From Agarophyton chilense (lineage: Eukaryota > Rhodophyta > Florideophyceae > Gracilariales > Gracilariaceae), in NCBI GenBank assembly GCA_030374765.1, contig JARGXX010000021.1:496001-560000 (forward strand): DNA of 64,000 nucleotides, in the 5' to 3' direction. A program made the position numbers and the translations under genes. The notes beneath the pieces were generated by a model. It searched no databases, was not told where the DNA came from, and was given only the letters and a program-made list of their open reading frames with translations. Shown in pieces: positions 8,168-41,982 of this stretch (the first letter of the stretch is position 1; every line of letters starts with the position of its first letter).

Positions 8168-8435
8168 CGAACCAACTCTTCAACGCCTAGCACCATGTAC
8201 TTGACTGCATCACGCCACCAGCGTCAGCAGATATGATCTCCAGCTCGGAAGCTTTGAACCCGAAAAAATAGACATGGGAGTCTCTCCTGATGGAGGGGCA
8301 TCTTCCAAGTTGAGGTGGAACACGCCCTAGGTGTCACCGCCTCACTCCCCAGTCACAATCCCTACAAGGAATATGGCTAAGACCGACGTTGACTCGGAAC
8401 ACCTAGCTGTTTTACGTCGTCCCTAGATACGGTTT
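8168..8435. other. Upstream junction of gypsy element 1
   Basis: A short stretch with no gene. No LTR or gag gene is recognisable between here and the protease of the gypsy element, so the 5' part of that element is missing or too decayed to see. Confidence 0.35.
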
Positions 8436-19090: not shown

Positions 19091-20235
19091 GTCAAATGTT
19101 TCCACAAAAACCCTCGGATTTGCTATCAAAGCAAACGAGTTAGTTTAACTTTTTGTTAAAAGTGAATTATTCTCTTAATGTTACTAAAATGGAGACTGGG
19201 AACCTTTCTCAAAATTTAGAGTACATTTCCAAGACAGCACTTTTTTGAAACTTAGTTGATGATAAAAGGAGAAGTATGACCGCCCAAATTATGAATTTTT
19301 TTGTTTGTCTGTCAATATTTGTCCACTCGATTTCAATTGATTTTGTTGACTATTTTTGGTGCATATAAGCTGCTAGACGGTATCACAGTGACGTAACAGT
19401 TGAGCAAATTCTTCTGACTTGAAAAATGTAAATGGTGCGGTAAAAATTGAGTTTTATAGAGTTCTGATAAAAGCCTTCTACTGGAAACAGGCTGGTAAAC
19501 TTGGCCCAAAAAGTGGTCGAGAAGACACGAAAAGATGAACTATATTCAAACGATCGGTTTCGTCCTTCCAATGTGCTCAAAAATGCACCACTTTAGCATG
19601 TAAAGTCTTTTGAAGGTATATGTTTAGTAGATATTAGAATATTGTGATTTGTTTTGATAGAATTACTTGTAACTTCCGTAAGGAACAAAATAACAGGTTG
19701 TTTAGATATTGATTATGACTTGTAGTATCTTCTTACTGCCACCTTAGAAAATGTAATCTGTGGAGGCTCTTATGAGCAATTTGCAAAACGCTTTTTGAGA
19801 TACGAAAATTGCGTTGAGTGCATAGCTCTGTCAATAGTAAAGATCAGTATAGAGATCAATAAAATCTGGCATTAGAGGCATGCTTGAAAGAAAGGCGACA
19901 ATATCATACCCTTTTGAATGGTGCAAAACACGCCTCGTGTGACCGGTTACATTTCGGAATTATGGAATTAGCACAACCTCATACAAAAAACTTTCAGGGT
20001 CGCGAATATTGGATTTCCCTATAAGAAAGATCAGATCAGCTCCAATTCCCAGCACAAGAAAGAAACCCGTTTCATATTGTCACGGCACGGCGATTTGCGG
20101 CCCACAAAGATGCATTTTTATCCAGCAGCCTCTCCGTCTATAACGTCGCGCACTCTTTTCTCTTCGTCCTTAGTTCTTTTCCTTTCTCGAACTGCTTCTC
20201 AACGCCTTTCTGGGGATCCCCAATGAGCTAGCACC
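19091..20235. other. No recognised gene; pyrimidine tract before family A copy 2
   Basis: The AT-rich part to about 19.9 kb holds only mariner debris or nothing recognisable. From about 20140 to 20210 the + strand is rich in C and T, directly upstream of the family A ORF. This is similar to leaders in front of other ORFs in this window. Confidence 0.3.
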
Positions 20236-21716
20236 TTGTATGAAGTCAACATGCCGTCATCATCAACATCAAGCTCCGAATATCATTCTCATTCTCCCGC
20301 ACCTCCACCGCCAAAGGCGGACTTCAACATTACTTACGCGTTTCTTTGCGATCAATCTGGCGAGACATTGCGTGAAATCTCACGCTACTGGCGCGTCAGC
20401 GACAATTTTCAAACTGCACACACCTCCAAAGCCATACTAGTGGCACAAATATTGTGCTTCATACATATCAAATATGTTTAATCGGAGAAGGCCACGATTG
20501 AACGTATCCTCACAGCGCGATCGCATTTGGAGTTTATGGACTTAAAATATCGGTAGGAGTTTATTGGAAACCCAAAGACATTACCCGACACGAAAAGCCT
20601 GGAAAAAATTGCGGCATGCGGTGGCGATACTTATAATACAACGTGCCATTTTCCCGAGCTTTCAACGCGTGGAAGGAGCTGTTCTCGTCGAGAAAATCAT
20701 AGGCGCACGAGTCCAAAGAAGGGGGTCCAGTAGAAGTATGGACCGCCTAGGAAGAACGGAAGAGTGCAAGATGATGTGGAATTTGATAGTGTAGATCATG
20801 AACCTCAGAGCGAAGATAAAAGCCCGAAAAAAAGCGAGTACCGTTCCCTTTGTCAGAATTTGCGAGACTCGTTGTTATGATTCGCAATGACCCCGAAACA
20901 CGTCAGGCGTTCCTTCGATCCTCCAAAACATTTTCGAAGCGGGCTCGGTTAGATATCAAAACGAAACCGGTGGACAATTGGACCAATGTTATTGAGGTTC
21001 GTTTCAATGATACCTCATTGGCTCCGTGGTTTTCTTTTGATCACGTTCTTGACGGGATTGTCTCACCTGAACTTCTACCTCGATGTTTCAAATTTGGAGT
21101 GTATTTGCGGTCGGTCTGGAACGGTTTTAGGTCTCTGTCGTCCTTGCCGATTAAGAAATTTAAGAAGTGTGGGAAAAACAACCCAGAATTCAAGGACTTC
21201 ATATACGGACTTATGGGTTCAATGTTGTATAAGTTGAGCCAGGTGAATAGAGATCAAGTTCTAGTAGGAGCTACTGCCCTTGCTTTAGGAACTAAGGATG
21301 AAGACGAACAGTTATTGGGTTCCTCTGTTAGGAATATCGACTACAAAGGAATGTTTGCTCATGAGGGCGGGACTGGTTTGTTTGACCGTCAAGAGAGTTA
21401 TGGGTCAAACTCGAACAGTCGAGTACAATTAAAAAAGCGATCATCTGAAGAGTTCGAGGATTCTAGTGTTTAGTTCGTACATTCTGTATGTAGCTTTCTC
21501 AACACTGAGAAGGAAGCAGAGAGTCCGGCTCCTGTTCAAAAATCTGTTCTTTTGGAGCGCGTCAAATCAGCTCTGGGGAAGATTGAGAAGCGTCGCAATC
21601 TTTTAGTGGAGTTAATTCTTGCACAAGAACTGGTGGACAAAGACAAAAATAAATCTGAATGGGAAGCACATATAATGATGATCAGGAAGCTTTTAGATGA
21701 ACTCGACAAGTCTTAG
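20236..21716 (+). pseudogene. Family A ORF, copy 2 (transposon-associated unknown protein)
   Basis: A coding frame starts at 20236 (Ser/Pro-rich, then LREISRYW), passes stops at 20479, 20554 and 20731, and shifts near 20840. It continues 20850-21716 with a single TAG at 21471. The conserved core reads EFARLVVMI and VRFNDTSLAP and aligns with copy 1 (EFVRLVIFI, NRFNDTTLLN). The part beyond the TAG is a Lys/Glu-rich predicted coiled coil (ERVKSALGKIEKRRNLLVEL) ending LLDELDKS. No known domain is recognised beyond a weak SAP-like N-terminus. The ORF points toward the Harbinger transposase on the opposite strand, with host gene fragments in between. Confidence 0.5.
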
Positions 21717-21814
21717 TGGTCTGAGGCAAACTCAACCATGTAGTAGAAAACACGCACTCTAAATCTGAACCCGTTAGTCTAAATACAGTTTCGGTAATTC
21801 CAGTATCATTAGAC

Positions 21815-22699
21815 TATGTTGCCATATCTTCAGCAATGAGATTCAAAAGAATCAACCCAGGAAGAGTATTCACCCGTGATAAAAGTCGGAAGTCGAACGC
21901 ACTAAGAGGTAACTTATTTCCGAAAGAATGTGTTCGCACAGTGTTTTTGAGCACATACCGTGCACATCCCTTCTTGCTTGCCTTGTTGGTCAATTGTACT
22001 ATGACACCACTCATTTAGAATAGGGTGTTGGTGATGACCATGGTGCGTTCACGTCCGATGTACTAGTTCTGCGTGATGTTTTTTGTGGACAACACAACGC
22101 AAACTGAATTCCGATGCACTTGCAAAAGGTCTTTTGCCAGATCCAGTGAGATTAGCCCCGCTGCACATCCCACACGTGCCAGATTGTAGGTGCGCACAGA
22201 AATTATCATCTTGTACTTGTTGACAAGAATCGCCGAAAGACTGGGAGTAGGGTTGAAAAGAGAGCAATTTACCACAAGAATATCGATGGCTTTGGGGTCC
22301 GAGTTGTTTCGACGCAACAGCGCGTCCATGCAACTGATCAGCACCAGTTCACCTTCCTCCCAGGCAAAATGCATGTTGAATACGGACGGCTCTTTCATCA
22401 CCACCATTTTCCGGAATGGAATGCAAATTTCCAAGGATTCCAACCTGAAAAGGTTTTTTACCGCTAATGCCACTGCACCCCAAGATATTCTTCTGGAACG
22501 CTATGGCCTCCTCATCAAACTTGTTCGAGGCCGAGGTAGTCCTCATATAGCGATTGATGCTAATATGGTACCAAGCCCTTTGTCGGATGAGAGGCGTATA
22601 GTAACGTTCAACAGCGTTGTGGCATACTTTGACGCCGAGATGCAGGTCATGGGGCAGCGCTTGGCCGAAATTTGCAGGGCATTTGCAGCCGCGCACCAC
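21815..22699 (-). pseudogene. 3-ketoacyl-CoA synthase (KCS/FAE1-type) pseudogene
   Basis: On -, FDEEAIAFQKNIL is followed after a frameshift by AIDILVVNCSLFNPTPSLSA, VNKYKM and VGCAAGLISLDLAKDLLQVH, which holds the catalytic Cys. Then come STKNITQN, and after two in-frame stops LTNKASKKGCARYVLKNT and VRTH. These are consecutive hallmarks of fatty-acid elongase condensing enzymes, which extend acyl-CoA with malonyl-CoA in the ER. The N-terminal membrane helices and the C-terminal catalytic His/Asn part are missing. It is head-to-head with the phosphoribosyltransferase pseudogene. Confidence 0.8.
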
Positions 22700-22738
22700 T
22701 CCACTATCGCCATTTCTTCGGCGTTCGATGAACTGTAA

Positions 22739-23700
22739 ATGCAGCTTTCGAGGTGCCTCAAGCTCAGTTTCGATTCACCAACCCAGTTTGGGCTGTACGT
22801 TCAAGTTGCCGACGCCCAAGGTGACTCCAAGGAGCTGGTGGGCGCCAGGATGCTTAAGGAGTGTATTCTTCGCGAGGGCAAGATGTTGGCCGTTGGCATC
22901 CTCAAGGTGTCGTCGTTTTTGAGTCACATGGTCGACACAGATCTCATGTAGGTGTGTGGCGAGGAGCTGGCTGAGAGTTTGAGGCCCACCATGACCAACA
23001 AGGTTGTGATGGTACAGTCCACAGGGGTGATTGTTGAGTTGCCGACAGCTAAGACGCTTGGCATACCATCGGTATTTGCGAGCAAGAGTCGGCCAATCAC
23101 GATAAGCGACTCGTTCGAGACAACGTATCGTTCGGCCACCAAGAGCACCAGTAACGAGGTCATCGTATTTTGCGATTATCTGGAAGGCGGTGACCGCGTG
23201 CTCATCATAATGAATTTCTGGCATGGGGTTCCATGGCATAAGCGCTGTTCAAGCCGGCGAAGATGGCGCATGCAACTGAAATGGATGTGGGCGTTCTGAT
23301 TGAGAAGATTCTAGACGGCGGACACGCGTTTCTGTCTTACTACGACGTGCCGGTGGAATTGTTGGCCAAGGCGTTACCAGGAAGCGACAAGGGACGCATC
23401 ACTGTTGTGGAGGAGGAGCCGTGGGCGTCGCCGGCAGCGAGTTAGCTTGACAAGTGCGACGAAAGGGGGCGCAGTGGCGACAGGGCAGAGGGTGGCGCTG
23501 GCGGCGAGACAGAAGGCGATGAGGACAACAACGAAAACGACGACGTGACCGACGTGGCGACGATCCACTGGGAGGACGTGGACGACGGGATGGAAGAGAT
23601 AGGCGATATCGACGACGACGAAGACGACACGGTGGCGATGAGGGCGGAGGAGCGGCGGCTAGACGACTTGCACAACCCCACGGTAGGCGAGCGGACGTGA
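22739..23700 (+). pseudogene. Xanthine phosphoribosyltransferase (bacterial Xpt type) pseudogene with acidic tail
   Basis: The frame follows Xpt, which makes XMP from xanthine and PRPP. It reads MLKECILREGKMLAVGILKV, SSFLSHMVDTDLM, a TAG at 22949, then VMVQSTGVIVELPTAKTLGI, PSVFASK, TISDS and GGDRVLIIMNF. The last is the PRPP loop, in which the DDF acids of the family are lost. A frameshift at about 23220-23260 leads into VGVLIEKILDGGHAFLSYYD and GRITVVEEEPW. The same frame continues past a TAG at 23443 for about 85 codons of Asp/Glu-rich sequence to 23700, an extension bacterial Xpt lacks. The gene is nearly full length but dead. Confidence 0.72.
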
Positions 23701-23987
23701 GCGCGGAAGGGGAGAGAGGCGAAAAAAAACGGCGTATGTAACGAAAAGCCTCGGCACGCACGGCGGAGACACGGTGGAGACATGGGGGAGGCGCCCGCGT
23801 GGCTGTGGCGTCTGCGTGGCTGCTGTATAGGTTCAGTGCAACGTGCCAGCTGCGTGCGCGCTTTGCACGCTTTGCGTTATACTTTACTACAGCTCGTGCG
23901 TGTGCACTCGACTCTCCACGCTCCCTGCCGTCTACTGGTTGGACTCGCGCGGAGCCCTTTTTGCGTGCTGCCCCTTTGACCCGCTTC

Positions 23988-24190
23988 ATTTCGCTCCTCC
24001 CCCTCCCCTTTTCCACCACCCTTCGCACTCCCATCCCCCACCCCCCTTCCCATCGCCTCGCTTTCCTTCCCCGCCTTCCTCGACTCCTTTCTTCTCCTCA
24101 TTCCCTCAACACCGTTCTTTGCCCGCCCTTCCTCCCTCTCCATCCCCTCCCTGCCTCTTCGCTGTTTTTTTCCTTTCTCTTCTAGAATTC
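23988..24190 (+). promoter_or_regulatory. C/T-rich leader
   Basis: About 200 bp of almost pure C and T on the + strand end at the ATG at 24191. A very similar tract precedes the Tim17-like gene at 57455. This suggests a 5' leader or core-promoter feature of genes in this genome. The function is inferred. Confidence 0.4.
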
Positions 24191-24502
24191 ATGGATGCCC
24201 CGCCGCCACGCCGCGTCTTCCCAGTCCCCAAATCCCTGCTTCACCCACCGTGTGCCGACTTTCCGGATTTTGCCCGCTTGCAAAGTGCGCTGGCGCACAC
24301 TGAGCGCGCGCTTCCCGCACCTCCGGCTCCGCCCCGCCCTGGCGACCACAACTCCTTGGACTACTTCCATTGGGCGGCCTTCGAAAACGCCGCTTGTAAG
24401 CTGGCTCATTTTACTGTCTCTGATCTCTCCGCGTGCGCGCTTTGCGGCGCCATAGGCGAGCTTCACTGCAACAAACCAGGCGTTCACGCCCCGCGTTCGT
24501 AG
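24191..24502 (+). CDS. Hypothetical 103-residue protein
   Basis: An uninterrupted ORF begins right after the C/T-rich leader. It is proline-rich at the start and has a CALCGAIGELHC pair of CxxC/CxxxxxxHC-like residues near the end, but no recognisable family. The start was chosen because the pyrimidine tract ends there; upstream codons in the same frame are low-complexity. It lies among dead gene fragments, so it could be the truncated 5' end of another stranded host gene rather than a functional protein. Confidence 0.35.
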   Translation: MDAPPPRRVFPVPKSLLHPPCADFPDFARLQSALAHTERALPAPPAPPRPGDHNSLDYFHWAAFENAACKLAHFTVSDLSACALCGAIGELHCNKPGVHAPRS

Positions 24503-24639
24503 TGCTACGCTGCATGCAATTGTCTGTAGTCTCCAGTTGGCGCGCTTGTTGCCGCACATCGCGCCGTCACAACACCGCTCACCACTCAGAGAAGGTCACT
24601 CCGTGCTTTCCAAAACTTCTTTACTTGCCATGCTGCTTT

Positions 24640-25068
24640 GCATTCCGCTTCCATCGCACATCCGCTTTCCTCCGCTGACGGAACCCACTGTGCGTTGGCC
24701 TCATCTGATGATGAAGATTCGGTGCCGTTGGATGACGAAAATGACCTTGATGGCCTGGATTGCATGACGTTTTTCTCATGCATGAGGGCGTCATTGTTCA
24801 CTGGGATGCCTGTGCCAAGCGCAAATCAAAGGTGCTTGATATTAGTGGCTCCACCATTTCAGGACCTGACGGCCTCGGCATGTTGGTGCTGATCTCGACA
24901 CTTACTACCAAGAACGATTTGGTTATTGCGGGCGGCTTTTATAGAGAATTAAGTGCCAAAAGTGATACGAACGGCACCATCATTCACAGCAACAGGAATA
25001 CTTATGACGACAATGCGATCACGAATGCCATCGACTTCCATAACGATACTTCCAATTCTAGTAATTAG
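24640..25068 (+). pseudogene. WD40 protein fragment (C2A9.03-like family)
   Basis: An acidic stretch (SSDDEDSVPLDDENDLDGLD) is followed after a frameshift at about 24760 by HDVFLMHEGVIVHWD, SKVLDIS, LVIAGGFYREL and NTYDDNAITNAID. This order matches the N-terminal half of the fungal/plant WD-repeat family typified by S. pombe C2A9.03. In that family an acidic leader precedes a DVYLMS...HW segment and VAGGFQGEL...TYDDNAITNAI. The repeats that should follow are absent, so only the 5' part of a gene remains. Confidence 0.6.
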
Positions 25069-25104
25069 AGCCGGTAGCGGTTCCTAACGGAGAGAGAGTT
25101 GTGG

Positions 25105-25398
25105 CTTCCAGGTGCCAATAGTAGGGGCCGTAATGCAGCAGATGCTGCGGTTGCAGGTGACTACCGAAAATATCAAGCGTCGCTAGCCGAGCAGCATGGC
25201 GCGTGCTACAATAATCTCTTGTGGCAGCAGTACTACGCTGCAATGGAATAAGACTTCAACATGCCGCAGATTTATAATCCGTACTAGAAATATTTCCAAT
25301 CGTACATGAACATAAAAGCTTCTGTGAATAGCGCTGATGGTAGTGTGTGAATGCCTGCCAATGCCGTCTGGCCAAATGCTCTCAGCGCCGAAGGTTAG
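25105..25398 (+). pseudogene. Gln/Tyr/Asn-rich decayed coding stretch
   Basis: One frame of 98 codons with four stops reads GDYRKYQASLAEQH, LLWQQYYAAM, FNMPQIYNPY and KYFQSYMNIKASV. Such Q/Y/N-rich composition is usual in low-complexity tails of RNA-binding or transcription proteins. It is probably the end of another host gene stranded beside the Harbinger transposase. The family is unknown. Confidence 0.35.
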
Positions 25399-25399
25399 G

Positions 25400-26389
25400 C
25401 CTCATTTGTATCTTTAATAACGAAAAAAAGTGTCTGTTTGGACTTTGAAGGGAACAAGATTTTTTATTTTGGCAAGACAAGATTTTCACTGTCTGAAGTG
25501 AGCATGTGATCCTTGTTATGCGCAGCCTTAATTCAATAGTTCGTAGTCGTTGCTTCGTTTTTGAGTACTTACCAACGATCACTTTTAACATATTTCCTTC
25601 CTCCACCACATCTTCCTCAAGATCAGGAGCAAAGAAAGAATAGAAGCCAAACGTATTATACTCAAACCACCTTACTAAACTGTCTTTAGCCACCACCAGG
25701 TTTTCCATACCATGATCCTTGTGTTCGTCGCGTGAGTCTTCGTAAATGCAATAGTTTTCCAGCTCCATTGCGTTATTTGTTATTACTAATGACCGCTATA
25801 AATCAAACTTCAACGGTCGCCATAGATATCCCCATCAACCCTTCAATCGTCCATATGCCTGCTCGACGTGCACCCGGTGCGACGACAACAGCATGCTAAA
25901 AACCTGATCAAATTAATCAGCTTCAGAGCTAGGCACAGCTCTAATTAGCATATAATTACAGATATAGGCCTCACCTCCAGCAATCCAAAAGACCGGCGGT
26001 TGTCCGATCTCGTCTAAGAACTTTGAGATATTAGAATGTGCAAATGCAATTGAGTCCACGGTAGACCCAACGCAGATTGCGGTCCTAGCAACAAAACGAT
26101 ATCTTTATTATACAACCGCCTGCACAGGAACACCAAAACCTTCCTATACAGTGTAGAACTGTTGATTATTTAGTACTTTCAAATGTTTCTCCAAATATAT
26201 GATAGTTCTATCCACAGCACTAATGAACCTCAATAGAGAATTAAATTGCCTTCTCGACAACGAGTAATCTATCGCTCGGTCGAAATAAGCAGTGTGGTCT
26301 TCTTTTTGCGGAAACTGTTCGAAATGTAGTACTGAGTCACACGCATTTAAAACATTATTAGAAATGGTATACATTTTTGGTCTTCCTAG
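25400..26389 (-). pseudogene. PIF/Harbinger transposase, element 2 (C-terminal part)
   Basis: Downstream part of a transposase split by the LTR element. It reads ISAVDRTIIYLEKHLKV (first Asp), QQFYTV, a stop, GFGVPVQAVV, RYRFVARTAICVGSTVDSIA (second Asp) and FWIAGGEAYICNYMLI. The family's third acidic DEAY has become GEAY. The tail is ELENYCIYEDSRDEHKDHG. Several stops and frameshifts are present. The reading frame enters from the upstream part at 37634-37925 when one CCTAG copy is removed. Confidence 0.8.
26385..26389. repeat. Target-site duplication CCTAG (left)
   Basis: CCTAG directly precedes the 5' LTR and is repeated directly after the 3' LTR at 37634-37638. A 5-bp duplication is typical of Ty3/gypsy integrase. 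Confidence 0.92.
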
Positions 26390-27023
26390 TTTCGTATAGT
26401 GGCCGAAGGTTTGACCCTTGAGGTTGTCAATATCCTACATTGACCTTGTAGGTGATGGATGCGAGGAATCATCGGTCATGCAGCTCCGGGCGAGCTACCA
26501 TCTAGGTGTTGTAAGCCACGTGTAGTGTTGATATGTACCTTTTGGTTGAGTAATTGTTAGTGATAGTAGTTGTAATTCTGTGTATTTTAGTACAGTAGTT
26601 GAGTGGCCACCTGGCACTGTAGCCAGTTGTGGCCAGGTCTCTGACACTAGGTCAGAGACCGTGCCTTGCTGGCACCTCCCGGGTGATCTGGAGAGGGCGG
26701 TCCACTGCATATAGGGAACTGCACCTCCCCCATCCTAATCTGATAAAGACAGACATCACTTTGGTCACGACTGTACCTTTTGGTTCATCGTTTCTCAACT
26801 ACCACACAGGCTTTCCCGCGCGTCGATGCCTACCATCGTTCACCTACACGGTATAGGATAGTTGCCCCGCCGTTTGCCCCTGCGGGTTTTCACGGTGCCC
26901 TGTTACCATCGAGGTTTACTACGTTTACCTTCTAAGGTTGAGCGTTAACACACTCCCTACGGTTGAGCGTCATTACGCTCCCGAGACAAGACAGTAGCAT
27001 ACCCCAGAGGTGATTGTACGACA
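26390..27023 (+). repeat. 5' LTR
   Basis: 634 bp, bounded on the left by the target duplication and ending GATTGTACGACA. It contains three back-to-back hairpins (26604-26675) and a TATA-like GCATATAGG about 30 bp after them. The next bases, TTTTAGTCTCCC, are not a usual TGG-starting tRNA primer-binding site. Confidence 0.95.
26604..26675 (+). promoter_or_regulatory. Three contiguous hairpins in the 5' LTR
   Basis: Stem 1 (26604-26635) pairs TGGCCAC with GTGGCCA and inside it CTGGC with GCCAG. Stem 2 (26636-26660) is a perfect 10-bp stem GGTCTCTGAC/GTCAGAGACC with a 5-nt loop. Stem 3 (26661-26675) pairs GTGCC with GGCAC around TTGCT. They abut without spacers. The same three occur in the 3' LTR with every stem intact although the LTRs differ elsewhere. 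They could act in the RNA (dimerisation, packaging, polyadenylation) or as protein-binding palindromes in DNA. Confidence 0.6.
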
Positions 27024-27242
27024 TTTTAGTCTCCCGACTTAGAAAGTATTTTTAGGTTTCGTCGTACATTCCCAGTTCACACGAGATTCCGAGAAGGATT
27101 GGACGCTCGTACATCTATTTGGTTACAGTAAATCCCGCAAAGGACTACAGGATACACCTATTGGTCACAAAAGGAACGACCTAAAAGGAATACGCGTGGT
27201 GCGAGCGCCCCGCCAAGCCATAAAGATCTTAAAGGAGCCCCA

Positions 27243-29379
27243 TTGGCCCAATCGATTCTGGAAAACCCCGAGGAGCTGCCCCGGCACCCTTGGGACAAAA
27301 CCGGAAAGGTACATGGTCCGCCGCCAATGGCAACGGAACCACAAAGGGAATTAATAACTGGGGTTGCAGCGGAGGAGCTATGGCCTCAGCTCGAAGAGCG
27401 AGGGAAAGCGCTCGTAACCCTCGCGGTCGAGGATGCATTAACCATGAAGGAGAAGTCGGATACCCGGATGGTTCCGCCTTCAATGGACGTCGATGCATTT
27501 ACCCGTATTGTGGTTGACCGAGCAGCTCAAGAGCTATCGGAAAGAATACCTGAAACGGTGAAGCAGTATCTCTTTACAGATGCTAGGGAGCATGTTAACC
27601 GCCCTGTGCAGGACCTTTGGGTTTCCGAGGGATTCGCAGAATCCCGACCTACACGGGTGAACATCGCAAAGCGCATACCACAAGGGTTCCAACTGGGTCA
27701 TTCCACCCATTCCAAGCACTTCCCTACTGATAGTGAGTACCTGCAGGGTCCAAGGCAGAGTCAAGAGGTCCGGGGAAGGTAGATCCTCAAGATATTCACC
27801 TGCCACCAATTACTGGTTTCGTTCAAAAGGATACCCATGGAGGTGGTCCCAAGGAAGATTCGTCTGACTCGTTGGATGAGCGACGAAGGAACCGAAAAGG
27901 GAAGAAGCGGAGGAAGAAGAGGGGAAAGAATCTAGAGGATGATTCAGACCCCGACTCGTCAGACTCCAGTTGCGGTACGAGTTCTTCGTCAGATGATGAC
28001 CTTACAGGGAAGAAGAAGAAGAAACCGAACAGATCGACGAATAAGTCGTCGAAAAATACCGGAAAGGGTAAAAAGCGATACAATTAGTCGCCCGGCTTTG
28101 AGTTGGACACCGAAATGGACCTGGAGGTGCACCAACCCTTGAACGATATGTTCACCAAAGCGGTTGACTACAGGACTTATCGGTTGATCAACAAGTCTTC
28201 TGAATACACGTAAAGGGTGGCTCAGAAGATTTCTAAGCACCACAAGAAGCTCAGCTTCCAAATGGGTGACACAACCTTCACAGGTACGGATCCTAATGCG
28301 ATAATTGAGTTTCTACAGAAGTTCAAGCTTGCATGTGACCAAAATGGTTTTTCCGAGGGCGCTGCGATGTGGCTATTTCAGTTTTACCTTAAAGGGAAAG
28401 CATACTATTTGCTGCAGGGTAGGCTCCGCGGCTATACCTCTGCGATGGATGAGGATGGTACAGAGATGTTGGAGTCATACCCAGAAGTGGTCAATTTCTT
28501 TTTGGAAACATACGCCACCGATGAGGTTATCCAAAAGGCTTACTCGGAAGTCCTCGCTTACCATCAAAGGTCTGGGCAAACCGAATCGGAGTTTTCGCTC
28601 GCGCTGTGGAATCCGGCAACCCGTTGTGGTAATGTGTTCACTATCTCTAGGTTAAAGTCGTTATTTGTCGACAATGTCGACAAAGCGATCCGTTACCAGG
28701 TACGCAATTATCGGGCCACTAACCGAAAGGTAGACTACAATGGGCTGGCCCAATACTCCCGGGGCCTTGGAGATAACCTTCGGCTGGGAAAGAGACCAAC
28801 CATGCCTCCAACCTCGAAGGATAAACCGAATAGGTCGGTATTGGAAATTGAAGACACAACAACCGCAAAGGGTAGCTCTCACCTCGAAGTACCTACAGGG
28901 ACCGCTGTCCACTTGGTAGCGACCCAGGGGCGGTTCTCGAAACCTTCCACGGTAGGAAATTGGTCGTCAACGCGTACACCAAACTGGGTACAATCGCCGC
29001 CAAGTGCGGTGAGCTCGCATAGGGTGCAGTGAGCGAGCTCCCATAACTGGCCACCCACATCCTACGCCACGGCTCCTACAAAACTTGTTTCGAGGCCCCC
29101 CTCAATGGTAACGCGAGACCCCCAAACTGGAGACCTCGTTTGCTGGTTTTGTCTTGCGACAGACCACTTGGCAAATAATTGCGCAAACTTACCCCCAGGG
29201 ATGAGAGACTAGTTGATTCGGGCTCGCATGCAGAATCACCAACGCCTCTATGGGTCTTCAACGCAAGCACCAAATAGCGTCCAACCCCGTACACCGGTAC
29301 AGGTCAATACCATCGAGGAAACACCAACTTTGGACTCAACCGCTGCCGTACAGGAGGAAAACACCGAACGATTGGCGTA
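27243..29379 (+). pseudogene. Gypsy 2 gag
   Basis: The first frame (27243-27782) gives an N-terminal, acidic-helical part. From about 27785 a second frame continues to 29379 through stops at 28085, 28211, 29030 and 29213. It has a Lys/Arg- and Ser/Asp-rich linker, then a capsid-like block (DPNAIIEFLQKFKLACDQNG, WLFQFYLKGKAYYLLQ, VVNFFLETYATDEVIQKAY). It ends in a perfect CCHC zinc knuckle CWFCLATDHLANNC at about 29141-29182. Gag would form the particle and bind the RNA. Confidence 0.75.
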
Positions 29380-29427
29380 ACTGCCGAACTAAACCTGCAA
29401 TCGTAAGGCCAATCGATACCCAGAACC

Positions 29428-31061
29428 TTGAAGGTAGAAGAGAACACGTCACAACCAGGTCCTGTTTGTCATATGAAGTACAACAACTACAAAGTACGTG
29501 CTTCAATGTGTTTCTCCGATCGCCTGGTGGTTCCGGTCACCTGCGTGCTGGATACGGGGGCCGGCCCAAACGTTCTGAACTCTCGCGTCATACTTGAGGC
29601 GGTACTTCGGAACTTGAGCCGATCTCCCGACAGCAACCCGCTGGTGGATGCAAATGAGCGCCCATTAAACCTTCGAGGTATCCTCACCACTGTGGTGCAG
29701 CTCGGACACCTCAAGGTAAGACTGCAATTTTTGTTTTCGACCGTTTACCAACAGACTGCCTACTAGGTACGAACTTCATCGACAGAAATGTCAAATCAAT
29801 CCTTCTTGGTTCCCATACCGTCGCCCTACGTCACGGGGGACGAATTACCATCCTAGGTAATACGGAAACCAAACGGGGATGGTTCCCCAAACCGAAAAAG
29901 ACGTTATCCACCGAAACGGTCTCCAACAAAGTGCGCATTACCAAAAAGGTTTTTATCCCGCCAGTGCACCAAATATTGGTACCGGTGTCGTGTGCGACCC
30001 CCGGGCTGGTCATACTACAAAACTATTCGAGGTTAGCACATCGACACCTCACGTTGACGTCCAACGGGATTGTCGACAATATCCCAAATCAACCCTTTAA
30101 GGTGTGCCTCAGCAACTTCAGCAGTCATGACGTGAAGTTGCTGAAAAATACCAATGTTGGCATCCCACTACCGGCAACACAAGGGGTCTTTACCGTAGCT
30201 CACACTGATCTCGGCGAGGTCGCCTTCGATAAGAAAGGGGGGTGCGCAAATGCGTCCACAACCACAAAGGTATCTATAAATACCAACTTGGAAGCGAAAG
30301 TAACCGATAAGGAATCGGTAGACAAAGAAGAGAAACCGGACCCTGAGAGGCAATGGCAAGATAATGTCCAGATCGGTGAAGAAAACGGCCAACTGCGGGG
30401 CCGTATTACCGACCTTCTGGAAGAGTTCAAAACCATGTGGCCAGGCTATCTGGGCCAAATTAAGGCCACACAGCATCGCATCGAGCTCCTCTCTGACTCG
30501 GAGCCGATTTATCAGCAACCATACCGTGCAGGTCCGAAGGCGAGAGAGATAGAACTCAAAGAAGTGGAGCGAATGCTCCAAGAAGGTGTAATTGAACCAA
30601 CCAACTCAGATTGGGATAGTCCCGTGGTTCTGGTTCAGAAGAAAGGGGATAACCGTATAAGGTGTTGTGTGGACAACAGGAGGCTCAATAGCGTGACCAT
30701 CAGGGATTCGAACCCGATACCTAGAATGGATGAGTGCATCGACTCCTTGGGAGATGCGCAGATATTTAGCTCGTTTGATGCCAAATGCGGTTATTGGCAG
30801 GTACGCGTAGGTGAGAAAGAGCGAGACAAAACGACCTTCGCGTGCCATGCAGGTTTGTTTCGCTTCACGCGGATGCCTTTCGGGTTGCGCAATGCTCAAG
30901 ACACCTTCCAAAGGGCGCTGGACATCATCCTTTCGAACGCTAAATGGACAACCGCCTTGGTGTACATCGATGATGTAATCATCTATTCCAGATCGGTAGA
31001 AGAGCACTTTGCACAAGTACTCACCGTACTGACCTTCCTAGCACAGACGGGGGGACGCTGA
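29428..31061 (+). pseudogene. Gypsy 2 protease and reverse transcriptase
   Basis: Protease: VTCVLDTGAGPNVLNS with the retropepsin DTGA, then after a frameshift at about 29740 LPTDCLLGTNFIDRNV, the family's ILG-like end. RT: MLQEGVIEPTNSDWDSPVVL, IRCCVDNRRLNSVTIRDSNP, FSSFDAKCGYWQV with the first catalytic Asp, FRFTRMPFGLRNAQDTFQRA and ALVYIDDVIIYS (YIDD active site). RT itself is unbroken. A length change in a G-run near 31050 breaks the frame into the RT thumb. Confidence 0.85.
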
Positions 31062-33667
31062 AGCTACGCAAATGCGTCTTCTTTACCAGAACGGTTGAAT
31101 ACCTGGGCCACATCATAGGCCCTGGTACTCTAGAGGTTGCGCCGGGCAACATTAGAGCCGTACAGGAGGTCAAGTTTCCACGTTCCCAGACAGACGTTCG
31201 ATCCTTTATAGGTTCATGTAACGTCTATCGTCGCTTCGTGAAGGGATTCGCGAAAATAGTGGCTCCCCTCAACAAGAAGCTCCGGAAAGGTGAACCTGAA
31301 CGGTTTGAGAATCTATCGAACGAAGAAATGGATACCTTTGAGGAATTGAAACGAGCGCTGGTGTCGCCGCCAGTCCTAGCTTTACCGAAAACAGGTCTAC
31401 CATACACGCTGGATACAGATGCATCCTATGCCCAAATTGGTTGTTGTCTCCTGCAGGAGCAGTACAACGGAGACAAAGTACCTATAGGATATTGGAGCCG
31501 CGCTATGAATGAGGCGGAGCAGAACTACACGGTAACCGAAAAGGAATGTCTAGCATTAGTGTGGAGCATGTTGATGCTCCGTCCATACCTTTATGGTGAG
31601 TGCTTTACGTTGTGCACGGACCAAGACGCCTTATCGTGGATCCTGGGACTCGCAGATGCGTCTGGTAGACTTTCCCGTTGGAGGTTGAGACTGTCGGAGT
31701 TTGAATACGACGTAGAGTACCGTCCAGGTATCAAGCACAACATAGCTGATGCTATGTCACGCTTAAACACCTCAGGGTTAGAGACAGAACCTGTGGACGA
31801 TGATATACCTTGCTTTTTGGTGTCATCAAACCAAAATGGTACCGGCGAACACCTAAGAGGATGTTGGGAATTTCCTGAAGAAGGTGCTTTGCGGAAAACC
31901 GACATGGCAACGCAGGTACTGGCCCTAGAGGAAACGAACGTCATGCCCGTAACCCGAGAGCAGTTTCTACGAGAACAGGCCCAGGATGCGTAGTGCAGAA
32001 CCCTGGCTGACCAAATTGGTTTCAAAGGATCACCGTTCGATGTAGACCACAATGGGTACATCGTGAGAAGGTCAACATTGGATGGTAGCCTTCAAAAGGT
32101 GGTTCCGAAGGCGCTGCGCCCGAGAGTCTTGTATCTCGCACACTATCTGCGACTATCGGGACTCCCCGGTGCCACCAGGATGTATTAGACCTTGAGCCAA
32201 CAGTTCTCTTGGCCTCATATGGCCCATGATATCTATATCTTTGTAGGTCAATGCAAATCTTGTGTTCGTACCTGCGGTGGAATTTGAAAGCATCGAAAGT
32301 ACCTCAAGCTGTTTCCAGCAGCGGGTCCACTGGAGTTTGTTGCGATAGACCTTCTAGGACCACTTCCCAAAACCAAGAATGGGTATCAGCACATTCTAGT
32401 GATCACCGACAGGTTCTCGAAGCTCACGAGAGCGATACCTTTAAAGGAGACGAAGTTAATCACGCTGGCGATCGCGTTCCTCAACAATTGGGTCTACCCG
32501 TACTGCACACCACTGTACCTACTGACCGATAGTGGTTCAAACTTGGCATCGAAGTTCTTCGAAGCAGTCTGTAACCTATTGGGTATTAAGAACTATTTCA
32601 CTACGGCCTACCACTTGCAGACGAACGGACAGGTCGAGCGCTTTAACCACACATTGGTATCAAGGCTACGACACTATACGGAAGAGCACCAAAATGGGTG
32701 GGATGAGCTGGTGCAACCGCTCACCTAATCCTATAACCCTCAGGTACACCGGTCAACGCAGACCATTCCCTTTGATTTGGGTCTTTCGCGACACCCCCCA
32801 GGTATTGTAGTGCAGGGAGATTATACCACCAGCACTGCAGCTGGCACACTGACCCCTGCCCAAGTCAAGCGAAATACCCTTTTGAGGTTGAGGAGGGCTC
32901 TCAAACATGCAGATAGCCGCCTCACTGCAGCCCAGAAGCGGTACAAGGCCGACTACGACCGTAGGGTAACCAAAGTGGTCTCCTTATCTTCGGGACAATA
33001 TGTCTACATAGACAACCCACCTTCAGGTTAAAGACCACGACCGGGTGACGAAGCGGACGATGAAGCTATTGATAGAGATATCAATTCGAAGCTTCTACGT
33101 AAATCAGTGGGACCCTATAAGGTATTGAACGCATCAGACCACACCGTTACGGTTGACCAGGACGGAATATCGAATACGATATCAATTTACCGTATTAACG
33201 TAGCACCTGAAACGGTTCAACATCGCATGGAGGCGGACATCTCACCTCGAGAGCCCAGAGCTGTAGCCCTGCGAACTAGAGCCTCGGAGGACCCCACACC
33301 AATTGAGGTGAACGATGACTAATCAAGGGATGATCCGGATTACAACCCTCTAACAGGGATGGAAATGCAACCTCAAACGGTAACAGCGGGAGCTCCCGAT
33401 CCGGCTCCCACACAAGAAGCTCCCAACCCAGAGCATATGAACCCTCAAGGTGGCGTTCCCCCGAAAGATCAGGACCAAACCTCAGAGGAGTTTCCCGTTG
33501 ACCGTTTTGTGAACCACACGCGAACCTATAATGGTCTGAAGTACAACGTCAGATGGTACGGCTGGGACTCAGAAGGGGAAACCCTCGAACCCCCAGCCGC
33601 AATACCCCCACACTTCCGTATCAGGAATTGGCGCCATCGCAAGGAGTCGATGCCTGCAGACGGCTAA
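31055..33667 (+). pseudogene. Gypsy 2 RNase H, integrase and chromodomain-like end
   Basis: One frame of 870 codons with six in-frame stops. RT thumb (VEYLGHIIGPG). RNase H (YTLDTDASYAQIGCCL, EKECLALVWSM, LCTDQDALSWIL, YRPGIKHNIADAMSRL). Integrase HHCC-like finger (AHYLRLSGLPG, GQCKSC). Catalytic core AIDLLGPLPK, LLTDSGSNLASKFF and NGQVERFNHTL. A GPYKVL motif comes near 33110. The end EFPVDRFVNHTRTYNG, LKYNVRWYGWDS and ETLEPPAAIPPHF is a chromodomain-like fold. This places the element with chromoviruses. Confidence 0.85.
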
Positions 33668-33885
33668 CCTTAGACCTTCTTGGTACTCAGGCCTAAGGAA
33701 GGGGAAGAAGATACGTCGTTTTCCGCAGAAGGTGGACGCATATGCGTCAGATTACCTACAAGGGAGGACACGAAAGAACAACCGAATGGAACAGTAGAGG
33801 AGACAAGAAGAGACAACAATTTAATTTAAGAAGGACCTGTCGGTTTAGGAGCAATGGAATCAGCAATACCCTTGCTATTGACTAC
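33668..33885. other. Spacer between the convergent pol and antisense ORF
   Basis: About 220 bp without a gene. The pol and antisense ORFs end tail-to-tail here, so both transcripts probably terminate or overlap in this spacer. Confidence 0.4.
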
Positions 33886-36144
33886 TCACGGAGGAAAACC
33901 CGCGGAATTGCTAGGAGCCATCGACCTAAGAGGTAGCGAAGGAGCGGTAGCCCCCCCACTGGGGAGAGGAGTCGAAACCGAAAGAGAATGAACTAAAGGA
34001 ACCGCCGGAGCAGGTTGCAAAACCGCAAGGATCAAGTTGGAATCTAGAAGGGGATCTGTCAAAGGATCAGACGGCGCAGCAGCAAAGAAACTTGCCAGAT
34101 TGGCAACCTGACGTGTGGCCCGTTGGTACATGTCCAACTGGAACTGGTTCCGGAACTCCCCAAGTTGGTTTAGCGCCTTCATGTACTGCGCATGGCAGGG
34201 CACCAAATATTCAAGGAGCGTTAGTGCAGCAACCACGGAGGTAGACCCCGTTCTCTGAAAGTTGGTGACGAAAGACTGGCGAATTCGAGCCAACAAACCG
34301 ACCACGGCCGGAGAATCCATCATAGGTTGAGGCGGAGGACTACCAATACCCGCCAAGAGAGGTCGAACCGGACCAGCAATCCGCGAGGAGCTCGGTTGAG
34401 TAGGAGTCACACCCGTAGAGATAGGCGACTTACGACCTTGAGGTAACGGCTCGGACGGGAAAGGACCAGCATAAAGACCAACTGGTGTCTCCACAGTACC
34501 GTGATAAGGCTCGGGGCTCGCGGGAGCTCTATAAACAGGAGGCTCCCCGGGATAATATTGGGCGTGGCGAGGCACAATTTCCCAAGTTGCGCGATCGAAA
34601 GCCTCCCAACCTTGATGGGAATCCCAACGGTAATTCTTGCTCTGCTAGAGATACGAGTTCAAATCCTTCACGGTATAATCGGTCCACTCCACGATGTTCT
34701 CGTAACCAAATGGGAAAATATCCTGGGCAACCCTCGGAGGTATGAAGAAGATGCAACCTACAGGTTGAACACCATCTCGGTATATGTCACAGTCGGGATT
34801 GCGAGAATCCCAATCGATACCGTAACGGGCGGCCTCCAGAGCCAGGATGGCAACCAAAACGCTCCACTCCGAGAGGGCAATCGACCAAATGAGGTAACAC
34901 TGCTCTAGGTTCCGGGAACTCTGACTCCCGAAGTACGCCAAAACCGGCGGAGTGGGCACGCTCAGCGATGACGGAACCTCATAAAACTCCCACCACTCTG
35001 GTCAAAGCACGTACCAATCGCGTCTGTTCTTCGTAGGTTGCGAGAAGTACTCGACGTTATGAAACATATGCATAACGCGAGTGTAAGAGTTGCGAGTGCG
35101 AACGCGACTCTCCGTCGCTGCATCCTCGCCCCACCTACTACGGTCAGCCCAATTGATAGTGGTGAAAGGCCGATTCAGGGAAACCAAGTCAGGTGAATCC
35201 GGAAGGTAAGTCTCTGGAATAGACGGGTACTGGCGCATTTTCACCACCAATCAGCGGTAATAATCCAGCTCCGGTTCGATGCGCACATACGGCAAGTCGC
35301 TCGGATATATCGGCGGAATGAAATACCTCAAAGGTGTATGACACTGCCGACTCTGGAAACATTCCACTCGACCCTGAAGAGGTTGAGACTCGTAGTCCTG
35401 TTTCTTCAAGAGCAAGGGAACGGAGCGAAGGCGCTCGCAGTCCCGATGGGACAAACCCAAGTAGGTATCTAATTGTAGTCTGGTAAGAGCTGCCGGCAAC
35501 GACGAATTACCTACCGCCACAGGCCAATAGTGATTCAACAGGTCATTGTTCGTCACCTGGTCGAAGGTAATACCAAAAGGTCCATACTGACTCGTCGTCC
35601 GGTTCGCCGCACCAAACGCGAGATTGTGAGCCCAATTGGTTTGGATCGTCGAAGGAAGTCCACCACTGCATTGGTGCGAGTCAGCCGGAGTCCCAGAAAA
35701 GAACTCAGTCGCTGGGACAGGCACACTGCAAAACCCAATGTTGGTAGGCGTTCGCGAAGTCGAGCGAGTTACCCTCTTTGTAATACCACCACGTCCACGG
35801 CCACGAGATGGGCGGCTACCTGACATGGTTGGGAAGGCTGTAGCTCGACCCGACGAACGAGATGATGACTCGACCTCCACCGCCCCGGTGAACACGAGCG
35901 GGTATTCATCCTTCTGAAGTAGAGCCTCCTCAGTCCGTTCTGAGGAGACGGCTAACGGATCTAACCTTTCCAGTAGTACCGAAACTGACCTTTCGGGTAC
36001 AACAGTGGCCGGCGTGCGGTCGCGAGCGGGTCTAGACCTTTGAGGTTTCGTGGAACGGGACCAATCCGAACTTAAAGGCATAACGGCAGGGGTATCGATC
36101 CCCTCGGAATCGCCAACTTCTTCAACCTCAATGGTAACCAGCAC
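33886..36144 (-). pseudogene. Gypsy 2 antisense ORF (aORF-2), unknown protein of about 750 residues
   Basis: A single minus-strand frame of 753 codons, starting at the ATG at 36144, is broken only by three in-frame stops (about 35251, 35001 and 34649). The N-terminal 100 residues are Ser/Thr/Pro/Arg-rich with an RPSRGRGRGG patch. A Trp/Tyr-rich middle part follows (HYWPVAVGNSSLPAALTRLQ, NVEYFS, WYVL, PEWWEFYEV, PPVLAYFGS, IVEWTDY). A Pro-rich linker leads to a helical C-terminus (LLARIRQSFVTNFQ, ASFFAAAPSD). There is no signal peptide, membrane helix or recognised domain, so it does not look like an envelope. Motifs shared with aORF-1 show it is conserved between distinct elements. Confidence 0.65.
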
Positions 36145-36986
36145 CTAACGTCTCTCGAACGCTAGTGCTGCTTGTAGGGACGACCCACCCGTGCGAGGTA
36201 TCGGTGACGAAACCACGATGCGGCGCGAGGTTCACCGACATGGTAATAAATGGGTTCGAACGCGTGCGCGGAGGTGGCGCCATCCTGTCATGACCTTGAG
36301 GGTAAACCGGAATGCAAAACCGTAAAAAGGTCGCGTAATTACCGACGGGGCCGCTCAACACCAGTAAGGTCTCACAACCGGAAGCTTCCACCGGAAGCTT
36401 CCACCACGGAGCCAGGCCAACACCTCAATGGTTGTATCGACGCAGGCTCAGGCCTCACCGGCGCCACGAGTCAATCCGTACAAGGTAGACGAAACCTGAA
36501 AGGTCGAAAAGCCAGGAAACCTTCAAGGAAAAGCCGGACAGTACGGTTACGATCGCGACGGCGCCAATTAAGGGCAGTACTACCTGAAGGGTTCTCGAGC
36601 CGTGGGAACGACCAGGCGGGACGGCGCTGCGCAGGGACCCAGGAGGGGAATGAAGTTAGAGAAATTGGGAAGGATGCGATACCAACTTGGTTAGACAGTG
36701 GGCGATGCGGAAGCAGAATCGCAAGCACGCAGGGCCACTACCGAAACGGTGTCGGCAAGCGCGTTAGTTACCCTGCATCGCCCTCATAGCAGTCCCTACC
36801 TGAATGGTTGTCGCTCAAATCGGGCGCAGACGTCGTCGCGCGCCCTCCCCGACCGATACTGGCGCCGATTTTTGACCCTCAAGGGATCGCGTGTCGTGTA
36901 CAGACACCACTCTGATGCCCGCGCTGCTGTCGCTCGCAACTTCTGTATGGTGTGATGGATGGAGACACAGGGCGTGCCTCACGGGT
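36145..36986. other. Region upstream of aORF-2
   Basis: About 840 bp between the antisense ORF start and the polypurine tract. The + frame 36250-36789 (179 codons) is Arg/Ser-rich with no motif and is probably chance. This stretch should contain the promoter of the antisense gene. The only structure noticed is a 13-bp tandem duplication at 36378-36403. Confidence 0.35.
36378..36403. repeat. Tandem 13-bp repeat with palindromic core
   Basis: Two exact copies of CCGGAAGCTTCCA, each holding the palindrome GGAAGCTTCC, lie about 240 bp upstream of the antisense ORF start. They could be a factor-binding site for its promoter or a simple duplication. Confidence 0.5.
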
Positions 36987-36997
36987 AGAAAGGGGGG
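36987..36997 (+). other. Polypurine tract
   Basis: AGAAAGGGGGG lies 2 bp before the 3' LTR. This is the expected place and composition of the plus-strand primer left by RNase H during reverse transcription. Confidence 0.85.
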
Positions 36998-36999
36998 TC

Positions 37000-37633
37000 T
37001 GTCGTATAGTGGCAGAAGGTTTGACCCTTGAGGTTGTCAATATCCTATACTGACCTTGTAGGTGATGGATGCGAGGAATCATCGGTCATGCAGCTCCGGG
37101 CGAGCTACCATCTAGGTGTTGTCAGCCATGTGTAGTGTTGGCATGTACCTTATGGTTGAGTAATTGTTAGTGATAATAATTGTAATTCTGTGTATTTTAA
37201 TACAGTAGTTGAGTGGCCACCTGGCACTGTGGCCAGTGGTGGCCAGGTCTCTGACACTAGGTCAGAGACCGTGCCTTGCTGGCACCTCCCGGGTGATCTG
37301 GAGAGGAAAGTCCACTGCATATAGTGAACTGCACCTCCCCCCTCCTAATCTGAGAAAGACAGACATCACTTTGGTCACGAGTATACCTTTTGGTTCATCG
37401 TTTCTCAACTACCACACAGGCTTTCCCGCGCGTCGACGCCTACCATCGTTCACCTACACGGTATAGGCTAGTTGCCCCGCCGTTTGCCCCTGCGGGTTTT
37501 CACGGTGCCCTGTTACCATCGAGGTTTACTACGTTTACCTTCTAAGGTTGAGCGTCAACACGCTCCCTACGGTTGCGCGTCACTATGCTCCCGAGACAAG
37601 ACAGTAGCATACCCAAGAGGTGATTGTACGACA
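37000..37633 (+). repeat. 3' LTR
   Basis: 634 bp, starting TGTCGTATAG and ending TACGACA, the same length as the 5' LTR with about 30 substitutions and no net length change. It carries the same three hairpins at 37214-37285. Confidence 0.95.
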
Positions 37634-37925
37634 CCTAGGCCAAACGTAGTGAAAATATCCCAGTAGTTGGCTCCCGCCATAATGCGTATAAAGATTGCCA
37701 CCTACGTCGCCGTTTTGAAGTCATGATCTTTGATATGGACTTCCGTTTCGTGGTGTTCTTCACCTTCGTATAAGCGACAAATAAACGGCTTAAGAAGTTC
37801 AGCAAGAGTGTAAAACGTGGTACGCGAGATCCGAAAAGATTTGGCGATATCGGAGTTCGTGAGGTGTTGGGTGACAGAAATAAGAGAACGACGACTACGT
37901 GCTTTTTTTTCTTCGAGTATTTCTC
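37634..37925 (-). pseudogene. PIF/Harbinger transposase, element 2 (N-terminal part)
   Basis: The first residue of this strip is the right-hand CCTAG duplication. On - it reads ARSRRSLISVTQHLTNSDIA, then FRISRTTFYTLAELLKP (helix-turn-helix-like), a stop, then MAGANYWDIFTTFG. Removing the LTR element and one CCTAG joins this to GRPKMYTISNNVL at 26389 in the same frame, as expected for a Harbinger N-terminus. It shows that the LTR element landed inside a transposase gene. Confidence 0.75.
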
Positions 37926-38379
37926 TTCATTTTTTTGTACACCCACAAAAATATTTTGAACACCAGCACCAAATATTGAAAGCGGCGACGTTTCCGATCA
38001 ATCATAACGGATAGAAGCACTGTGGAACTAACGTGGCGATCAATGAATCACGGCACGGTGATAGCAGCGTGCGAAACGTGACGAAGCTCGTCGTTGTCTT
38101 CTTGACTTGATCTGAAGTTGTAGAGTCATAATTCAGTAAAACTTGTTTTTAATTTTCAAAGTATTTCATAATTGGCAATGAATGACGAAGTGCCTGTGGT
38201 GTTTACATGCATCGCAAAGTTTGGGATTTCTCGTGTATATTCATGTACGCACCCTTCGCCATTCATTCGCCGTTAACCCCCTCATGGGAAGGCGTGGCGG
38301 TGGGGGCAACGCCATGGCCGGATGTAGCGGCTCCAAGGGTTGTCACGAATGGATGGTTAGAGTGACCACATGACGCAGT
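37926..38379. other. No recognised gene
   Basis: Short spacer between the split Harbinger gene and the next transposon. The motif TCACGGCACGGTGAT at 38048 resembles TCACGGCACGGCGAT at 20080, upstream of family A copy 2. It might mark element edges, but it is in direct rather than inverted orientation. Confidence 0.3.
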
Positions 38380-41300: not shown

Positions 41301-41807
41301 AAGACTGGTGGCCAGCATGCTCTCGGACAAGGGCGCCTCATCTTCTTCCATCCCTTCGACGCCCGGTCTTTGCAGAAAAAGAATTCAATTTGGCTTCTGA
41401 TCAGACTGCTGACGAAGTCAACTGCAAGTATTACAAATAATCTGAATGACGTCGAAGCAACATGGCAGCATGCAACCGATGAGCTACTTGAGCGATACGG
41501 CTGTCATCGCTTGCAATGGGCGCAAAATTCTGAAGGCAGCTTTGTGCACACTGTCGTCCCTGTTCATGACGTCGTTCGGCCGGTTTCGATCGTGCCAGAC
41601 TTCCGACACACGACCAAAAAGCTTGAATTCGTAAATGACCTCTCAAGAGGATCGTCGGTCAGCGGTGAGATCCAGCAGGGACAAGCCTCTTCGCGATCTG
41701 GCCATAACGAAAGGAGAGATGTTGAAAGGCTTGCCCCAGAGCCCGAAAAACAGCGAGCAGTGTTCTTTTACAACAACTTCTTTCCCTGGACGTCGCCGTC
41801 GACCTGA
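38380..41807 (+). pseudogene. CACTA/Plavaka-like transposase with C2HC zinc finger
   Basis: The N-terminus has a zinc finger CKNCGRVYRHVSNFRIHSLKC-type pattern (CX2CX12HX3C) at about 38603-38663, then an acidic linker. After a frameshift near 39250 one frame (39264-41807) continues through stops at 39522, 39903 and about 40485-40600. It has YPTVLYLLCFSRRVRRRL, GLRKIYPCFRCYVP and FESLHNFDLGITADILHGIE, then a C-terminal LIFFHPFDAR and VRPVSIVPDF. The pattern (host-name RR motif, CxxC after a PE-V-LLG block, LHNF-L--D-LHG, terminal V-DF) resembles Tnp2/Plavaka transposases of the CACTA group. The assignment is by overall pattern, not by a decisive motif. Confidence 0.5.
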
Positions 41808-41982
41808 GAGACGAGTAGAGCTGTCGAGTAGTTGCTTTGCACAATAGCACATAAATAGAAGTATTAAAATCCCCACCCTTTCGCTTCAGCAACTGTGATA
41901 AAAGATGTACCTCACGGTTTTGTTCTAACCTCTCCCCAGAAAAACACCAGAGCCCTTCTGTTGAACGATATTTCGAATAGCT

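Follow-up and report, generated by a model that had tools for sequence, protein, structure and literature searches.

Two-gene PIF/Harbinger transposons with duplicated host DNA between their genes in the red alga Agarophyton chilense, and one replacement of this cargo

We analysed a 64,000-nucleotide stretch of the genome of the red alga Agarophyton chilense (hereafter the window: contig JARGXX010000021.1, positions 496,001 to 560,000, which is C21:496001-560000 in the C1-C135 naming of contigs used here), in which two loci have a gene of a protein family termed family A on the + strand, then fragments of host genes, and then a PIF/Harbinger transposase gene on the - strand. Both loci are very probably two-gene PIF/Harbinger transposons that carry, multiply and move duplicated host DNA between the tails of their convergent genes, and that would be loaded with this DNA by break repair. 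The observations that carry this reading are the structure of the units, the 3-bp duplications around them, the recurrence of the units, the donors of the host DNA, the different cargo of related elements and one replacement of cargo with a before state, an after state and donors. The genome searched comprises 79.8 Mb in 135 contigs; since the searches score the best candidates only, all copy numbers are lower bounds, and a single assembly, with no reads, stands behind all results.

The element at locus 1 is 5,604 bp long (1351-6954), as defined by a whole-unit copy elsewhere and by empty paralogous sites. Terminal inverted repeats of about 23 bp form its ends (1351-1372 on the + strand, paired with 6930-6952 on the - strand), flanked on the left by the 3-bp target duplication TCA (1348-1350) and on the right by TGA (6955-6957), which differs from it at one position. 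The family A gene, identified by protein match, is broken and lies in two overlapping frames (2137-3311, + strand). It is followed, all on the - strand, by a captured fragment of a family-B DNA polymerase (3607-4110, Pfam DNA_pol_B, 2.6e-25) and one of an E2 ubiquitin-conjugating enzyme (4778-5062, Pfam UQ_con, 4.3e-15), both with internal stops, and by a broken transposase (5339-6577, Pfam DDE_Tnp_4 at about 5561-5998), whose second catalytic aspartate motif looks altered by eye. The polymerase and E2 pieces that an earlier note had read from the letters of this DNA are thus recognised by Pfam, as is the transposase at both loci; the subtypes alpha and UBE2T are that note's own assignment.

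The whole locus-1 unit recurs at C75:68072-73671 with 89% identity, and this copy has TCA on both sides. The landing site in the window is a dispersed repeat, whose left flank is matched at no fewer than 33 other places; the five paralogous sites examined (L048-L052) lack the unit, with the two flanks next to each other, and read CCG or CAG where the window has TCA. Hence, family A, the polymerase piece, the E2 piece and the transposase arrived as a single unit. Stretches 604-1348 and 6958-7233 are the two halves of this repeat, and the frame at 601-861 is RNase H-like by eye. Genes resembling the parents were found by protein match only, for the polymerase at C6:309213-309704, inside a 1,560-aa open frame (63%), and for the E2 at C116:886713-886991, inside a 235-aa open frame (68%). 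We give practically no credence to the explanation that such loci are old host pseudogenes into which parts of Harbinger elements inserted by chance; the stops or frame breaks of the host pieces in the window would fit it, but the recurring units and the vacant paralogous sites of locus 1 refute it, and the 3-bp duplications outside the unit and the parent genes elsewhere stand against it as well. Capture inside the element, which the earlier note had preferred to chance insertion, is the version that these data uphold.

At locus 2 (19875-38209) a PIF/Harbinger element, delimited by homology to other copies, lacks about 40 bp at its right end and is split by a long terminal repeat (LTR) retrotransposon. 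The 3-bp target duplication of the window copy is seen on the left side only (TTA, 19872-19874). A family A gene with several stops, again identified by protein match (20227-21470, + strand), is followed by a captured fragment of a 3-ketoacyl-CoA synthase (KCS; 22019-22572, - strand, Pfam FAE1_CUT1_RppA, E 1.5e-54), by a captured block on the + strand (22575-25065) that comprises the 3' part of a xanthine phosphoribosyltransferase (Xpt) gene, intergenic DNA and the 5' part of a WD40 gene, and by older element or cargo sequence with a Q/Y-rich frame (25066-25384, + strand). The transposase, on the - strand, is interrupted: its 3' part lies at 25385-26389, with DDE_Tnp_4 at 25802-26212, and its 5' part, together with the right terminal region, at 37634-38209, where Pfam gave no match and the assignment comes from homology to other copies. 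The 11.2 kb between these parts (26390-37633) are the nested retrotransposon, foreign to the Harbinger element, with LTRs that are 95.4% identical over 632 bp and CCTAG on both sides; its frames look gag-, reverse transcriptase- and integrase-like, and Ty3/gypsy-like, by eye.

Long parts of the locus-2 unit, minus the retrotransposon, recur on C86, C79, C80, C98, C14, C82, C81, C93 and C117; their identity is mostly 84-89%, with a range of 81-90% over the single pieces, and the C14 and C82 copies are without window 22713-24237. The C79 and C80 copies have TAA on both sides, start with GGGG or GAGG and end in a run of C. At both loci, ends and 3-bp duplications were thus found outside the units and none between cargo and transposase, the right side of locus 2 being taken from the other copies. 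The earlier note had set the two units at 1650-6568 and 20236-37925; the units and their common order hold, the order being supported by Pfam and by the recurrence of the units, and their extents proved wider. The second interval is one element, as had been proposed, although split by an unrelated retrotransposon, and its cargo is KCS, Xpt and WD40 as read, except that the WD40 capture ends at 25065 and does not include the Q/Y-rich tail.

The host pieces of locus 2 have donors with open genes, so that the intact parents which had been called for exist here, in addition to the parent-like genes of locus 1. The KCS donor (C80:119894-120443, 75.8% DNA identity) sits within an open frame, which has a full-length match to FAE1_CUT1_RppA. 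The donor of block 22575-25065 is C99:1469682-1472592 (88-91% identity), and in the C79 copy this block is 2.9 kb long at 90%. On C99 it covers parts of two open genes that are neighbours: a frame of 631 aa, which scores above the NCBIfam cut-off as xanthine phosphoribosyltransferase, and a WD40 protein of 685 aa; the Xpt and WD40 identities in locus 2 come via these donor frames. As the block begins inside the Xpt gene, crosses intergenic DNA and ends inside the WD40 gene, it was captured from genomic DNA. The element on C117 retains about 1.03 kb of KCS, and locus 2 only 0.55 kb, followed by the Xpt-WD40 block, which is most simply explained if this block replaced the 5' part of KCS in the window lineage. 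A further element, at C88:278-292 kb, has the family A sequence and window 25066-25600 in common with locus 2 (the latter at 78.6%); its cargo, which lies between these common parts, has CPSase small-chain and MGS-like domains. Behind family A, the C117 and C88 elements have a segment of about 650 bp (L018 3718-4367, L023 627-1282) with frames that are similar by eye and that is absent from the window copy.

We then looked at how family A and the transposase are linked across the genome. Between the two loci, the family A sequences have 30.6% identity in a match of 121 aa (E about 8e-8). From the 97 and 79 match rows of two protein searches, 97 family A places were obtained after fragments at the same place had been merged by hand. 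A listed DDE_Tnp_4 match lies within 12 kb at 52 of these places, and at 44 or more it is downstream and on the opposite strand, that is, convergent (44 of 98 if one weak separate place, C68:4612640-4612856, is included). In 200 random placements, with only the contigs that have hits and with the largest hit coordinate as contig extent, convergent pairs averaged 1.25 and never exceeded 5. The transposases listed were the best 150 of 525 candidates, so that true pairs were missed, such as window locus 2 and its C14, C79, C80 and C82 copies. The recurring order of family A, cargo and transposase, together with a pairing far above random, excludes chance. This linkage strongly supports family A as the second PIF/Harbinger protein gene, as the earlier note had suspected. 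No Pfam match was obtained on the + strand at either locus, and homologues of the family A protein of the young element L029 (see below) amounted to two proteins among the best 7,998 candidates, one from Gracilariopsis chorda and the other from a transcriptome. The DDE_Tnp_4 matches have E values of 1.7e-20 and 5.1e-12 in the window and of 1.2e-25 in L029 (profile positions 2-158 of 158). This transposase, a 3-bp duplication, terminal inverted repeats and a second protein gene are four features that the elements share with PIF/Harbinger transposons.

The paired matches lie no more than 2.4 kb apart in 13 of the 44 pairs and more than 2.7 kb apart in the other 31. In the one compact element that was read, on C116 (L057), the transposase and family A frames are about 0.3 kb apart, with no cargo. 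Among the 31 long-spaced pairs, 21 were inspected, the other ten being at C71, C21:39 kb, C99:1639 kb, C68:2114 kb, C95:2416 kb, C100:1111 kb, C96:567 kb, C13:1222 kb, C22:1200 kb and C95:2146 kb. Host DNA, which was accepted on a Pfam match, a donor match or near-identity to a copy with either, was found in 16 pairs (C86, C98:1270 kb, C10, C97, C92, C88:249 kb, C6:650 kb, C25, C22:1330 kb, C135, C33:115 kb, C98:909 kb, window locus 1, C4, C95:233 kb and C75), and nested transposons in two. Element L039 on C95 gave no Pfam match on the single frame scanned and is counted as cargo-bearing because it contains the bromodomain stretch. Eight cargo sets were found: polymerase with E2; KCS with Xpt and WD40; bromodomain with S16 and COX18; bromodomain with PGI; PGI without bromodomain; GH47 with inositol-pentakisphosphate 2-kinase; DAGK; and CPSase with MGS, the last in an element outside the 31 pairs. 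A single lineage accounts for the three PGI/bromodomain sets. Other copies of the units and related elements with other cargo, both of which the earlier note had proposed to search for, are thus present.

A young family of such elements shows a replacement of cargo. The element L029 (C88:249075-258108, 9,034 bp) has an open 570-aa family A frame and an open 438-aa transposase frame, and copies that are 99-100% identical to it lie on C6, C25 and C135. The terminal inverted repeats of this family are GGGCGCTCGTCA/GGGTGCGCGTCA, and in all four copies the 3-bp duplications match on both sides (TCA, TCA, TGA and TCA) while the flanks differ. In the cargo between the genes, a bromodomain piece is accompanied by an S16 domain, which is complete, and by a COX18 frame of 386 aa, open from its own Met. 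The COX18 identity of this frame comes from protein similarity (83% identity to a Gracilaria domingensis protein, 73% to a Gracilariopsis chorda protein) and not from Pfam, where the match is below the cut-off (19.6 of 35 bits). The view that all cargo is dead therefore applies to the broken pieces in the window but not to COX18 in L029. That such structures are an artefact of the assembly or a scaffold chimera is very improbable; all results do come from a single assembly with no reads, but the four L029 copies have individual flanks with matching duplications, and the locus-2 copies are 11-16% diverged and so cannot be one misjoined sequence.

The state before the replacement is retained on C22, C33 and C4, which match L029 at 1-3233 (96-99%) and at about 6592-8813 (95-98%) and contain about 3.7 kb between these matches; in C22, the one whose middle was read, these comprise PGI and a longer bromodomain stretch. 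In that place the copies on C88, C6, C25 and C135 contain the stretch C3:1538520-1541882, to which L029 is 99.7% identical over 3,365 aligned bases, with 6 mismatches and 2 gap openings. The donor of the bromodomain piece lies on the same contig (C3:1550150-1551331), in a 530-aa frame with a bromodomain and a BET domain, and the two donor pieces have the same orientation and are about 8.3 kb apart.

Where the older cargo meets the new block, L029 is identical to the bromodomain donor. Compared with this donor (L036), it has 65 mismatches in 2052-2957 and none in the 272 bp of 2958-3229, and this tract ends at 3229/3230, which is the junction to the new block; the other older cargo differs by 7%. 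If mismatches were scattered uniformly, all 65 would fall in the first 906 of the 1,178 sites with a probability of 2e-8, and a mismatch-free run of that length did not occur in any of 20,000 simulations. In the last 193 bp, the before copy on C22 has 9 differences from the donor and 10 from L029, so that the tract is more than a conserved one.

From these patterns we infer how loading may proceed. A double-strand break would arise within the element, most simply from excision, which as its cause is our supposition. One broken end would enter a host gene, repair synthesis would copy that gene, the template would then be switched, and the copied end would be joined, at little or no microhomology, to the second half of the element. 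Older cargo would serve as the homology that leads a broken end into its host locus of origin, so that the next cargo would come from the same neighbourhood. In L029, the end would have entered the bromodomain gene by way of the older cargo, copied from it, jumped along C3, copied S16 and COX18 and rejoined the element. Copies that retain both element genes would keep multiplying, and cargo would for this reason be tolerated in the central slot.

Two published models could also account for cargo of this kind. In the Pack-CACTA type of trapping, as described in the review PMC13317346, two related elements flank a host gene, and an aberrant excision with complementary deletions yields a hybrid. 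This too would put DNA-level cargo between element ends; we nevertheless consider it improbable here, since the swap in the L029 family is internal only, with both sides 95-99% like the before copies, since none of the family A and transposase matches listed is adjacent to the C3 donors, since the model does not predict the donor-identical 272-bp tract, and since the KCS and Xpt-WD40 pieces of locus 2 stem from different contigs (C80 and C99). The model that Tan et al. put forward for multicopy Pack-TIRs (PMC8277862), with replicative breaks and a jump at microhomology, is less easily set aside, although we still regard it as rather unlikely: nearby donors and short microhomology are compatible both with it and with the loading proposed above, and nothing in the data separates replicative from excision-induced breaks, but a homologous tract of 272 bp suits strand invasion better than a microhomology jump.

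Several points weigh against the reading of the loci as two-gene elements loaded by break repair. The homology-guided step was seen in one event only, and the reverse order would give the same pattern, if both C3 pieces had been captured together and the 5' part had then been converted from an older copy. The reading does not account for the jump of about 8.3 kb between the C3 donor pieces, and the left junction of the new block has no microhomology, the right one having 2 bp in common with the element. For family A there was no SANT/Myb match above the Pfam cut-off, only matches below it at E up to 5; the second PIF/Harbinger protein is described in PMC8616336 with a SANT/Myb/trihelix domain. 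An AlphaFold model of a 317-aa relative, made with four sequences, has a mean pLDDT of 38.7. In the locus-2 family the terminal repeats are weak, with only a few G-rich bases that match. Its copies on C80, C14 and C82 have the left flanking DNA in common, and those on C80, C14, C82 and C81 the right, which makes them one insertion and not four, either duplicated later or present twice in the assembly. Among the long-spaced pairs, those on C111 and at C98:1287 kb have nested transposons in place of demonstrated host cargo, those at C6:95 kb (L033) and C33:537 kb (L055) gave no Pfam or NCBIfam match in the frames scanned and look FkbM-like by eye, and the one at C80:1296 kb (L054) gave no such match in the open reading frames scanned.

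The two nested cases differ in content. On C111 (L056 2509-4335), a second Harbinger transposase beside a DUF6818 protein is nested between the family A gene and the transposase of another element, and at C98:1287 kb (L034 4676-5026), where two open reading frames were scanned, a fragment of a DDE_Tnp_1_7 (IS4-type) transposase lies in the Harbinger element. Elsewhere in the window, a run of long + strand frames (340, 193, 402, 271 and 314 aa) at 38374-43878 is possibly another large transposon. A direct repeat of about 0.8 kb (46003-46785 and 60328-61106) has 91-97% identity between its copies, which are 14.3 kb apart, and 55347-58201 is G+C-rich (67% in 56001-58000) with opposing long open frames of 614 and 541 aa.

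Gene capture by terminal inverted repeat elements is already known, as PMC8903248 describes for Pack-TYPE elements, including Harbinger-PIF ones, in rice and maize. The elements described here resemble these in being PIF/Harbinger elements with captured pieces of host coding DNA whose parents lie elsewhere. By the same paper, however, Pack-TYPE elements are non-autonomous, whereas here both genes are present, open in L029 and broken in the window copies; the cargo, moreover, comprises several genes and extends to a reading frame that is complete, and for one replacement the before state can still be recognised. The elements thus seem to work like Pack-TYPE elements without being classed as such. 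Turmoil-1 of C. elegans, as given in PMC2572040, is likewise a Harbinger element with a transposase and two captured coding sequences, but it carries them in long inverted repeats and exists in one complete copy, in contrast to the central slot, the several copies and the replaced cargo seen here. The animal Pack-TIRs, formed by gap filling or FoSTeST, are alike in the bias towards nearby donors, in short microhomology and in template switching; there, according to PMC8277862, microhomology guides the switch, while here a 272-bp homologous tract of earlier cargo borders it. Pack-MULEs, Pack-CACTAs and gene-carrying Helitrons, as covered in PMC13317346, also duplicate host genes by DNA transposons, of other superfamilies. 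The same 2026 review states that the mechanism by which terminal inverted repeat transposons capture unlinked genes may still be undiscovered. We found no report of gene-carrying Harbinger elements from red algae or Gracilaria in a literature search of partial coverage, with subscription journals mostly outside it.

One lineage thus retains the before state, the after state, a donor with 99.7% identity and a donor-identical tract of the older cargo, which makes a specific repair model testable. Somewhat short of an even call, we would extend this to a more general proposal, in which autonomous Harbinger elements could be carriers that load themselves, every captured piece could act as a homology address that leads the next broken end to the neighbourhood of its donor, cargo could be exchanged stepwise, complete genes such as COX18 could be duplicated and dispersed along with the genes of the transposon, and capture could be directed by previous captures and not be random. 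In a red alga, PIF/Harbinger elements with both genes are able to carry multi-gene cargo that includes a complete reading frame; as a caution, host genes that are found duplicated in such genomes may be transposon cargo.

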